Source: Altererythrobacter xiamenensis (lineage in GTDB: Bacteria; Pseudomonadota; Alphaproteobacteria; Sphingomonadales; Sphingomonadaceae). From it: a DNA stretch of 64,000 nucleotides. This document shows positions 55,918-58,870 of the stretch, one piece after another; the stretch's first letter is position 1; each line of letters starts with the position of its first letter. A model generated the notes under the pieces. It saw only the letters and a list, made by a program, of their open reading frames with translations. It was not told where the DNA came from and ran no database searches. The stretch spans positions 62,001 to 126,000 of the forward strand of contig NZ_FXWG01000003.1 in the NCBI RefSeq assembly GCF_900177715.1, read 5' to 3'. The position numbers and the translations under genes are program-made.

Positions 55918-56556
55918 ATGTGCAATCTCTACCGCATGACCAAGGGCAAGGACGAGGTCGCCAAATGGTTCGAGGCGATCGAGGAAATGGGCGGCGCGAA
56001 CTTCGGCGAGGAAGTCTATCCCGGATATCCCGGAGCGGTCGTCGCCGAAGGGCGGCTACGGCAGATGAACTGGGGCTTCCCGCTGGTGATGAAGGGCAAG
56101 CAGGGCCAGCCGCTCAAGCCCAAGCCGGTCAACAACACCCGTACCGACAAGCTCGACAGTTTCTTCTGGCGCTACAGTTTCGAGGAGCGCCGCTGCCTCA
56201 TACCGGTGACCGCCTGGGCCGAGGCCGAGGGGCCGAAGGGCTCGAAGACCCGCACCTGGCTCTCATTGCCGGATAGCGAACTGTTCGCCTGTGCAGGAGT
56301 CTGGCGCACGAGCGACGAATGGGGCGATTGCTATTCGATGGTCATGACCGACGCGGGTGGAGCGGCGGCGGAAGTGCACACGCGCATGCCGGTGATCCTT
56401 GGGCGCGAGGACCACGGCACATGGGTTTCGGGCGAACCGGATGCGGCGCGCGCGCTTTGCCAGCCATGGCAGGGCGACATTCTGCTCGACCGCACAGACC
56501 AGCCTTGGGCAAGGGGAAGTGCGAGCAGTGGCGCCTCTCAGAAGAACCTGCTCTAG
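55918..56556 (+). CDS. SRAP (YedK/HMCES) abasic-site-crosslinking protein
   Basis: This 212-residue protein begins MCNLYRMTKG, so removal of Met1 exposes Cys2, the residue that family members link covalently to abasic sites in single-stranded DNA. Other expected active-site residues are visible: N72/N73 in VNNTRTDK, the glutamates in AWAEAEG (102-104) and H154 in EVHTRMPVIL. GAGGAG precedes the ATG. It shields abasic lesions during replication in bacteria and animals. Its stop interlocks with that of the amidohydrolase (CTAG, 56553-56556). Confidence 0.93.
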   Translation: MCNLYRMTKGKDEVAKWFEAIEEMGGANFGEEVYPGYPGAVVAEGRLRQMNWGFPLVMKGKQGQPLKPKPVNNTRTDKLDSFFWRYSFEERRCLIPVTAWAEAEGPKGSKTRTWLSLPDSELFACAGVWRTSDEWGDCYSMVMTDAGGAAAEVHTRMPVILGREDHGTWVSGEPDAARALCQPWQGDILLDRTDQPWARGSASSGASQKNLL

Positions 56557-57830
56557 CGCTGCTGGAAAAGCTCTCCGCCCTTGATCACCGCATCGACATC
56601 GGCGAGTTCCCCTACATCGGCCAGAGGATCGCCATCGACAGCGATCATGTCGGCCCATGCACCCGGCTTGATCACGCCGACCTGACCTTTCTGCCCCAGC
56701 GCCTCGGCTGCGTTGATCGTAGCCGCCTGGATTGCTTCAAGCGGAGTCATTCCGTACTCGACCATCACGCGGAATTGGCCGCCGACATCTTCGTGAGGCA
56801 TCACGCCTGCATCGCTGGCGAACACCATGCGGACGCCGCCCTCGTGCGCGCGGCGGAAATTGTCACGCTGGGCCTGACTTAGCGCGCGTTCCTTGGCGAT
56901 GTTCTCTTCAAGCACGCCGTTAGCCGCGCCCTGGCTCAGCGTGTATTCGGTGTTGAAGATATCCATCGAAAAGAACGTGCCGCGTTCCTTCGCCAGCTTC
57001 ACGGCCTCGTCATCGGCGTAGCTGGCGTGCTCGATCGTGTCGAAACCGGCGCGGATTGCCGCCTTGATTCCCTCTGCGCCATGAGCATGCGCCGCCGCCT
57101 TCAGGCCCCAAAAATGCGCCTCGTCCGCAATCGCGGTGAGCTCTTCCAGCGTGAGCTGCTGGATGCCTGGTGCCGTGTTGCGGCTGAAAACGCCGCCTGT
57201 GGCGCAAGCCTTGATCACTTCGGCACCGAACTTGCGCTGTTCGCGTACGCGCTTGCGCAATTCGTCGGGGCTGTCGCCGATCGCGGGGCTGGGCGTGTTC
57301 ATGCTCGGTGGGAGAAACGTGTTGTCGCAATGCCCACCGGTTGCGCCCAGCGCGTGTGCTGCGGCGACTATGCGCGGGCCCTGCATCCAACCCTCTTCGA
57401 TGACCTGATCGAGGCCGACAACGTTGTAATCGTCAGCGCCGAGATTGCGCACGGTCGTGAAGCCCGCGCCGAGCATCTTCTGCGCGTTCACCGCACCGAT
57501 CACCGTCCAGAAGCGGTCGGTGAACTGCAGGCCGGAGTAGCCGCCGTACTCGGGCCTCCCGTCGAGATGGACGTGCATGTCGATGAGGCCGGGTAGCAAG
57601 GTATGCCCCGAAAGATCGATCACTTCCGCATCGGCAGGCGCAGAGCCGTTAGCTTCGACCGAGACGACCTTGCCATCCGTCACCGTGATAAGCGGAGCGG
57701 TCACATAGCGCCCGCTTTCGACATCGAGCATCCGGTCGGCGCTGACATAGATGGTTTCGGCCGAGGCAGGTGCCGCGGCGAGACCAGTCAGCGAGAAGGC
57801 GAGGGTTGAAGCGATGGCGGCGAAGCGCAT
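56553..57830 (-). CDS. Secreted metal-dependent amidohydrolase (dipeptidase/imidazolonepropionase-like)
   Basis: This 425-residue protein has a signal peptide (MRFAAIASTLAFSLTGLAAA, cut near ASA) and an amidohydrolase TIM barrel. Metal ligands are readable: the HVH pair in GLIDMHVHLDG, the likely carboxylated lysine in EVIKACATGG, histidines in AAAHAHG and TIEHASYAD, and the aspartate in VFASDAGVMPHEDVG. Close relatives include Xaa-Pro dipeptidases and organophosphate-type hydrolases, so a dipeptidase role in the periplasm is plausible. GGGAGA precedes the ATG. Confidence 0.9.
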   Translation of the reverse strand: MRFAAIASTLAFSLTGLAAAPASAETIYVSADRMLDVESGRYVTAPLITVTDGKVVSVEANGSAPADAEVIDLSGHTLLPGLIDMHVHLDGRPEYGGYSGLQFTDRFWTVIGAVNAQKMLGAGFTTVRNLGADDYNVVGLDQVIEEGWMQGPRIVAAAHALGATGGHCDNTFLPPSMNTPSPAIGDSPDELRKRVREQRKFGAEVIKACATGGVFSRNTAPGIQQLTLEELTAIADEAHFWGLKAAAHAHGAEGIKAAIRAGFDTIEHASYADDEAVKLAKERGTFFSMDIFNTEYTLSQGAANGVLEENIAKERALSQAQRDNFRRAHEGGVRMVFASDAGVMPHEDVGGQFRVMVEYGMTPLEAIQAATINAAEALGQKGQVGVIKPGAWADMIAVDGDPLADVGELADVDAVIKGGELFQQR

Positions 57831-57927: not shown

Positions 57928-58317
57928 TCATGAGGCTTCTCCCGATGATGCGTAGCTCACGACCTCGAACTCGATCCCGTCCCAATCGAAGAAATAGAAA
58001 CGCCGGCCGGGTTCATAGTCGTCATGGCCGAAGGGGGCGAGCCCATGGCGCTTTACCACTTCCTCCGCGCCGTCGAGATCGTCGACCGTGAAGGCGAGGT
58101 GGTTGAGTGGATTGCCCTTGCTGTACTCGCCCCTCACATGATCGCCCGTGTAGAGCGCAAGGTAATAATGATCGGTACCGACATGGATTGTCTTGCCACC
58201 GAGCATGGAGGGGCCGCGCCAGCGCTCTGCCCAGCCGAGCAAATCGACCAGCAGGGCGGCGCTGCGTTCGGGATCGGTTACCGAAATATTGGCGTGTTCG
58301 AGGCGTCCTTGAGCCAT
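57928..58317 (-). CDS. Glyoxalase/VOC-fold protein, predicted SoxR target
   Basis: This 129-residue protein has a VOC fold: LEHANISVTDPERSAALLVD, GGKTIHVGTDHYYLALYTGD, NPLNHLAFTVDDLDGAEEVV and YFFDWDGIEFEVVSYA. Histidine and glutamate residues at the expected positions could bind a metal ion. It may act on a redox-active or electrophilic small molecule, such as an antibiotic or quinone; the substrate is unknown. GGAG lies upstream of the ATG at 58317. It is divergent from soxR, and its promoter region has TTGACC with a sox box in the spacer, as in known SoxR-controlled promoters. Confidence 0.9.
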   Translation of the reverse strand: MAQGRLEHANISVTDPERSAALLVDLLGWAERWRGPSMLGGKTIHVGTDHYYLALYTGDHVRGEYSKGNPLNHLAFTVDDLDGAEEVVKRHGLAPFGHDDYEPGRRFYFFDWDGIEFEVVSYASSGEAS

Positions 58318-58380
58318 TGTGCATCTCCTGTTCTGTCTCGCCACGGGGTGCAGCGAACTGCGACGCACACATTGATGCAA

Positions 58381-58398
58381 CCTTAAGCTAAGTTGAGG
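58381..58398. promoter_or_regulatory. Sox box (SoxR operator) between soxR and the VOC gene
   Basis: The 18-base site CCTTAAGCTAAGTTGAGG agrees with the enterobacterial SoxR operator at 15 of 18 positions by my reading. On the minus strand TTGACC (58402-58397) overlaps one end as a -35 element. An 19-20 base spacer runs to a weak -10-like CATCAA/ATCAAT near 58371-58377. This overlong spacer with the operator inside is the known SoxR-controlled promoter layout, and it points at the VOC gene. Confidence 0.8.
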
Positions 58399-58429
58399 TC
58401 AAGGGTTAATTGCTCTATGTCTGTGATCG

Positions 58430-58870
58430 ATGAAACCGAACGACCTTCTGACCATCGGGGAAGTGGCGGGCCGAACCGGTCTCTCCGTTTCCGCCATTCG
58501 CTTCTACGAAGACAAGGGGCTGGTCGAACCGATCAGAACCTCGGGCAACCAGCGGCGCTTTCTGCGCAGCGACATCCGGCGGTTGAGCTTTATCCTGATC
58601 GCGCAGCAGCTTGGATTACCGCTCGCTGAAATCGAGGAGCAGCTGAAGAAGCTGCCCCATGGCCGGACGCCCAATGCGGGTGACTGGCGCCGGATCAGCG
58701 CATCGATCCGTGGTGAGCTCGATCGCCGCATCGCGGAGCTCGAACGGACGCGCGACCGGCTCGACGGGTGTATCGGCTGCGGTTGCCTAAGCCTGAAGAA
58801 GTGCGCGCTCTACAACCCGGATGATCGTCTGGCCGCAGAAGGGCCGGGCCCGCGCCAGGTCCTGCGTTAG
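58430..58870 (+). CDS. soxR: Redox-sensitive transcriptional activator SoxR
   Basis: This 146-residue MerR-family regulator has an N-terminal winged helix-turn-helix (LTIGEVAGRTGLSVSAIRFY, YEDKGLV) and a dimerisation helix. The C-terminal [2Fe-2S] cluster cysteines C114, C117, C119 and C125 lie in CIGCGCLSLKKC, the exact SoxR spacing. Oxidation of the cluster, by redox-cycling compounds or superoxide, untwists the promoter DNA and switches on targets. No soxS is present, as expected outside enteric bacteria. The sox box lies 32 bases upstream. Its stop interlocks with that of the phosphatase gene (58867-58870). Confidence 0.96.
   Translation: MKPNDLLTIGEVAGRTGLSVSAIRFYEDKGLVEPIRTSGNQRRFLRSDIRRLSFILIAQQLGLPLAEIEEQLKKLPHGRTPNAGDWRRISASIRGELDRRIAELERTRDRLDGCIGCGCLSLKKCALYNPDDRLAAEGPGPRQVLR

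Follow-up and report, generated by a model that had tools for sequence, protein, structure and literature searches.

We found that a gene for a VOC-fold protein lies back to back with soxR in the window (the whole stretch of 64,000 nucleotides of Altererythrobacter xiamenensis DNA that was analysed), and that the promoter facing the VOC gene holds a predicted SoxR operator, or sox box, in its spacer (Table 1). Judged from the sequences of the window and its relatives, it is very likely that SoxR controls the VOC gene in the window's genome. The redox trigger and the mode of action through the spacer we infer from established SoxR biology, which also makes it likely that the VOC protein helps to handle a redox-cycling metabolite; that the protein is an enzyme, and what it would act on, we propose less firmly.

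Table 1 Features of the divergent soxR–VOC locus, with positions counted from the first letter of the window.
Feature	Positions	Strand	Basis
soxR, redox-sensitive MerR-family activator (146 aa)	58430..58870	+	Open reading frame; NCBIfam TIGR01950; CX2CXCX5C
VOC-fold protein gene (129 aa + stop), proposed SoxR target	57928..58317	-	Open reading frame; PF00903; AlphaFold2 model
Predicted SoxR operator (sox box), reading CCTCAACTTAGCTTAAGG toward the VOC gene	58381..58398	-	Best genomic match; position shared by most relatives
VOC promoter -35 element, TTGACC, which overlaps the upstream end of the box	58398..58403	-	Sequence; aligned sites
VOC promoter -10 element, CATCAA, weak, 19-base spacer	58372..58377	-	Sequence; aligned sites

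The soxR product scored 191.5 bits against the NCBIfam equivalog profile TIGR01950 (cut-off 116.9) and contains the [2Fe-2S] cluster motif CX2CXCX5C as CIGCGCLSLKKC; this motif was present at 95 of 96 SoxR loci, the single miss being a protein cut off by the end of a contig. The product of the divergent gene matched the Pfam VOC profile PF00903 at 40.9 bits (cut-off 20.6). In the open-reading-frame listing the VOC frame begins with a TTG at 58380 and its stop ends at 57928; the ATG at 58317, with AGGAG upstream, is the likelier start.

By the mechanism that we favor, SoxR, a MerR-family sensor with a [2Fe-2S] cluster, would sit on the box within the spacer of the divergent VOC promoter, which at 19 bases is overlong. 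A redox-cycling compound would oxidise the cluster, the spacer would be distorted such that RNA polymerase could use the promoter, and the VOC protein thus made, probably an enzyme, would modify or destroy the redox-cycling compound or its reactive product. Counting against this mechanism, a search for RseC (PF04246), part of the system that reduces SoxR in E. coli, gave no match in the window's genome, and the control search matched in E. coli. A search with PHZA_PHZB gave no match in the window's genome or in any of 14 control genomes.

A sequence-only reading of the window had reported a 15-of-18 match to the SoxR operator here, inside an overlong spacer facing the VOC gene and with TTGACC at one end. 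Our recount gave the same figure: CCTCAACTTAGCTTAAGG differs at 3 of 18 positions from the soxS operator, which we take to be CCTCAAGTTAACTTGAGG. The promoter geometry was likewise as described, with the box, read in the VOC direction, lying between a -35 and a -10 element separated by 19 bases. Less favourable to SoxR control are one half-site mismatch in the box and the poor -10 hexamer, which matches TATAAT at 3 of 6 positions. When we searched the 3.08-Mb genome for CCTCAASNNNNSTTGAGG with up to 3 mismatches, the window box was, among the matches listed, the only one with 1 mismatch, and none had 0. Overall the pattern matched no more often than did its reversal used as a control (224 versus 234 matches); the weaker matches, with 2 or 3 mismatches, therefore look like chance, and we rejected them as further sox boxes of this genome. 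A stricter promoter pattern, TTGAYCTMAANNNNNNTTNAG, which we shaped after the family's own sites, matched the genome once with at most 1 mismatch, at the window box, and its control did not match at all, which raises the possibility that the SoxR regulon of the window's genome consists of the VOC gene plus soxR.

To place the pair among its relatives we surveyed 199 genomes of the family. The VOC query matched in 88 of these; we discarded those scoring 47 bits or less and kept 79 genomes with matches of at least 100 bits. SoxR was present in all 79, and in 78 the VOC gene was the divergent neighbour of soxR, with 81–608 bases between the matches (544–608 bases in 4 of the 78 pairs). The SoxR query matched in 191 of the 199 genomes; setting aside low-scoring matches to other MerR proteins (up to about 60 bits) left 96 loci, distributed over 94 genomes. 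These comprised 81 clade-I loci of at least 184 bits, one contig-truncated copy of 116 bits (in genome G082) that we counted with clade I, and 14 loci of a second kind (clade II, 131–157 bits), the cuts being score boundaries of our own and not taken from a tree.

Scored against CCTCAA-N6-TTGAGG, the box had 0, 1, 2 or 3 mismatches at 36, 33, 6 and 3 of the 78 divergent VOC–soxR loci, respectively, so that a box with at most 2 mismatches was found at 75 of them (the exceptions being genomes G059, G131 and G122); across the 82 clade-I loci the corresponding numbers were 38, 34, 6 and 4. By comparison, 0.4% of 4100 Markov resamples reached 2 mismatches or fewer and 5.9% had 3. Four clade-I soxR genes have no VOC gene adjoining them; the box of three (in G079, G147 and G172) shows no more than 1 mismatch, and that of the fourth (in G115) shows 3. 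A good box kept in the former three without a VOC gene indicates that the SoxR site has some other use there.

Alignment of 77 of the 82 clade-I sites (we omitted four with 3 mismatches and one for which the script gave no placement; at 3 of the 77 there is no adjoining VOC gene) revealed a promoter directed toward the VOC gene. In particular, the upstream end of the box carries a -35 element, TTGACC at 61 sites and TTGATC at 13, preceded by an A/T-rich stretch, and position 22 is A at 76 sites; this is the second base of the -10 element, which places that element at a spacing of 19 bases in the VOC direction. No conserved -10 element toward soxR was apparent in the logo of these 77 sites. Consistent with these findings, the promoter pattern occurred at 97 places in 87 of the 199 genomes, and its control at none in any genome. 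Eighty-three of the 97 places were at soxR or the VOC gene; 82 were at soxR, and every one of the 82 pointed away from it.

The other 14 places fall outside the count linked to soxR or the VOC gene. Perfect matches to the pattern with no soxR seen nearby occur at G175:C6:46493-46514 and G174:C30:359579-359600, and the best match to the SoxR query in G174 has an E value of only 4.5e-11, as for other MerR proteins.

Turning to the VOC protein, its AlphaFold2 model (mean pLDDT 92) has the VOC fold, its best structural match being a Frankia VOC protein (Z 14.0 over 121 residues). Other matches included enzymes, namely GloA (1f9z, Z 13.9), FosX (1r9c, Z 12.9) and ChaP-H2 (Z 12.2), as well as the metal-free binders TnmS3 (5w27, Z 11.9) and EhpR (3sk1, Z 11.5). 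Because the differences in Z are small and the metal-free binders score about as well as the enzymes, the fold alone does not single out a function. The conserved residues are more telling: His8, His73 and Glu118 are invariant in all 79 family orthologs and, in a profile alignment, fall on two His residues and a Glu of 1npb, a protein of the FosA type. (E7, N10, W29, R32, W33, H45, Y52, Y101, F107, Y108, F109, E116 and Y122 are also found in 79 of 79.) Such an invariant triad speaks for an enzyme that depends on a metal rather than for a drug binder without one, and we consider it fairly probable, on sequence grounds, that the VOC protein is a 2-His-1-Glu metal-dependent enzyme of a subfamily that has no name. 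As between the two options that the sequence-only reading had offered, an enzyme or a binding protein, the triad thus makes an enzyme likelier.

The possibility that the protein, while under SoxR control, instead sequesters a drug without a metal, as EhpR and the bleomycin-binding proteins do, has in its favor the fold shared with EhpR and TnmS3 and the protection that EhpR gives against a redox-active phenazine, as stated in the excerpt of PMC3175449; a role with a redox-active compound may be common to EhpR and the window protein. According to the same excerpt, however, the residues for FosA activity, the absence of which marks a drug binder of the EhpR type, are not conserved in EhpR, whereas the window protein and its orthologs keep the full triad in 79 of 79 cases. 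We regard such a binder as unlikely.

Improbable to a greater degree is that the protein is a glyoxalase I or a fosfomycin-resistance enzyme and that its control by SoxR reflects a general stress link. GloA and FosX are among its top fold matches, and its triad aligns with that of 1npb, yet the protein falls far below the curated cut-offs both for glyox_I_GloA (22.2 versus 165 bits) and for the fosfomycin-resistance glutathione transferase profile Fos_GSH (21.4 versus 180 bits), and so stands apart from FosX, FosA and FosB, with which it shares the fold. Moreover, the fourth metal ligand of GloA, which we take to be E56, appears by eye to fall at A54 of the VOC protein, a position that is A in 75 and S in 4 of the 79 orthologs. 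The window's genome has 16 matches to PF00903, of which this protein is not the strongest.

Whereas those alternatives concern what the protein does, two others would deny that the box serves the VOC gene. One is that the box exists solely for autoregulation of soxR and that the nearness of the VOC gene is incidental; indeed, 31 bases separate the end of the box from the soxR start, a position from which SoxR could repress or adjust transcription of its own gene, and three of the clade-I soxR genes that lack a VOC neighbour keep it. Against this, the conserved -35 and -10 elements face the VOC gene and none faces soxR, the 82 linked sites all point away from soxR, and the promoter is also kept before VOC genes that have no soxR upstream. 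We identified seven such decoupled genomes. In one genome of the family (G155), which has a SoxR of the second kind, the VOC gene does not adjoin soxR and is preceded by a perfect box, TTGACC and a 19-base spacer. The others came from overlapping samples of 385 genomes of the class and 398 of the phylum, in which 28 genomes outside the family had a strong VOC match (at least 144 bits): the VOC gene was divergent from soxR in 22 of them, had no soxR in the fetched stretch in 5 (G462, G891, G894, G736 and G879) and was convergent with it in 1 (G434). All seven decoupled genomes have a box with 0–2 mismatches in the 19-base geometry before the VOC gene, with TTGACC as the -35 element in five of them and variants in G736 (TTTACC) and G879 (TTGCCC), and each encodes a SoxR of 128–170 bits. 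A promoter kept before the VOC gene when soxR lies elsewhere or is convergent argues that the box serves the VOC gene. Together with the uniform orientation of the 82 linked sites, this comparison of sequences upholds the earlier proposal that the box controls the VOC gene, and we consider autoregulation as its sole purpose highly improbable.

Least probable is that the pair merely reflects an ancient gene order, conserved with no functional connection. Close relatives do share flanking genes (the SixA-like gene, for example, at 23 of 65 full named loci), but the flanks change while the divergent arrangement persists (78 of 79 family genomes; beyond the family, 22 of the 28 with a strong VOC match). 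Moreover, genomes that have lost this order retain the box, and six weak VOC relatives (60–78 bits) have neither a soxR in the fetched stretch nor a box with fewer than 3 mismatches.

The changes in the flanks come from a survey of 99 loci (80 named and 19 from the wider genome samples), in which neighbours were viewed for 2.5 kb on each side; the named set overlaps the 199 family genomes (G059 and G166 appear to be among those shared) and is thus not an independent sample. A divergent soxR was seen at 90 of the 99 loci, and two others (L154 and L161) end before soxR could appear. Named bacteria with the pair include Qipengyuania aquimaris (L148) and Novosphingobium lindaniclasticum (L179). 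At the 65 full-length named loci, soxR adjoined the VOC gene in every case, and the other neighbours found in the window recurred less often: an amidohydrolase at 9, the SixA-like gene at 23, a helicase at 14 and a YedK-like gene at 27. Given its presence at 9 of 65 loci, we rejected the downstream Xaa-Pro dipeptidase-like amidohydrolase gene (56553–57830) as a part of the module.

Also less favourable to SoxR control is that, outside the family, the box of the 22 divergent pairs had at most 2 mismatches in only 12 and 3 or 4 in 10, several of these with altered half-sites, and at one such pair (L256) no box was found. At six loci (L223, L251, L252, L254, L257 and L266, in family f22 and in one genome from beyond the class) the half-sites are changed to CTAAAG/CTTTAG, and the SoxR proteins of these loci may have altered DNA contacts.

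Our findings can be set against SoxR systems described elsewhere. Outside enteric bacteria, according to the excerpt of PMC4146615, the direct targets of SoxR are few and serve to modify or export small molecules; stress-defence genes are not among them. The window pair is very probably one more small non-enteric SoxR regulon, with one target standing out. In its size it resembles the regulons of Pseudomonas aeruginosa (PA2274, PA3718 and PA4205-PA4208) and Streptomyces coelicolor in that excerpt; it differs from them in that its target is a VOC-fold protein, a kind of target that the excerpt does not name, and in the single strict promoter in the genome. SoxR regulons were surveyed in 176 genomes in 2008 (Science 321:1203, as cited in the excerpt of PMC4146615). 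Among the literature matches listed, as excerpted, there was no description of SoxR control of a gene of the VOC or glyoxalase fold; the 2008 survey may list the gene, and we therefore claim no first report. The excerpt of PMC13210998 contained no SoxR–VOC link, and that of PMC4219479 describes a glyoxalase-family gene of Sphingomonas wittichii said to be 43% similar to BphC.

Compared with the soxR–soxS locus of E. coli, as we understand its soxS details, the window has the same divergent pair, with the box in a 19-base spacer and a -35 element overlapping the box, and differs in that the target is a VOC protein and not a regulator. The VOC oxidases ChaP-H1 and ChaP-H2 share the fold, with 27% and 25% identity to the window protein over 112 and 114 residues, respectively. 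ChaP itself, which takes part in the biosynthesis of chartreusin, is a VOC enzyme that employs flavin-activated oxygen, as given in the excerpt of PMC12281474. Unlike the role that we propose for the window protein, those of ChaP, ChaP-H1 and ChaP-H2 are biosynthetic; the likeness observed is one of fold and sequence. It is conceivable, though we hold it as a tentative and rather doubtful suggestion, that in much of this alphaproteobacterial family SoxR has turned into a nearly single-purpose switch for one metal-dependent VOC class, which destroys redox-cycling compounds resembling quinones or phenazines through oxidative attack on their rings; such attack was not seen among SoxR targets in the literature excerpts examined.

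The signal that SoxR senses outside enteric bacteria, and its protective role there, are not settled, and the window pair offers a simple system in which to ask about both: its one clear and widely kept target is a single small protein, amenable to metal tests and substrate screens. Knowing the substrate of the VOC protein would point to a kind of compound with which these bacteria have to cope, and might provide a new detoxifying enzyme.

Several loci depart from the arrangement seen in the window. Among the six long-gap loci listed, four (L014, L194, L196 and L198) have a second VOC-like gene between the box and the VOC gene, and L158 has a shorter open frame there; Pfam confirmed three of these second genes, and the stretch at L019 lies outside the region viewed. 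The former four suggest an operon of two VOC genes in the SoxR-driven position. At L268 (G462:C7:66210-67061), three partial VOC matches directly follow the full VOC gene on the same strand, perhaps as a broken tandem array. At L273 and L274, where the VOC gene is unlinked, soxR is divergent from a small gene resembling a putative antibiotic-biosynthesis-type monooxygenase.

The soxR genes of the second kind (L116–L129) have a perfect box at 9 of 14 loci, with a core that differs from that of the VOC boxes. By eye, an HlyD- or RND-adaptor-like gene lies divergently beside soxR at 7 of the 14, and one adaptor-like piece beside such a soxR scored just under the Pfam cut-offs. In G052 the neighbour is an FMN reductase, clearly above its Pfam cut-off. 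These neighbours resemble the transporters and small-molecule enzymes of other non-enteric SoxR regulons in the excerpt of PMC4146615.

Many of the VOC promoters of the relatives share a further element. GANTC, often as GATTCG, occurs just past the expected start of the VOC transcript, at 28–45, in 51 of 77 relatives (about 2 expected from its density in the loci), and at 34–45 in 49 of 77 of the overlapping named set; such a site, mostly 37–42 bases after the box start in the relatives, is absent from the window. GANTC is the methylation site of CcrM, and a cell-cycle input to the VOC promoters of these relatives is therefore possible.
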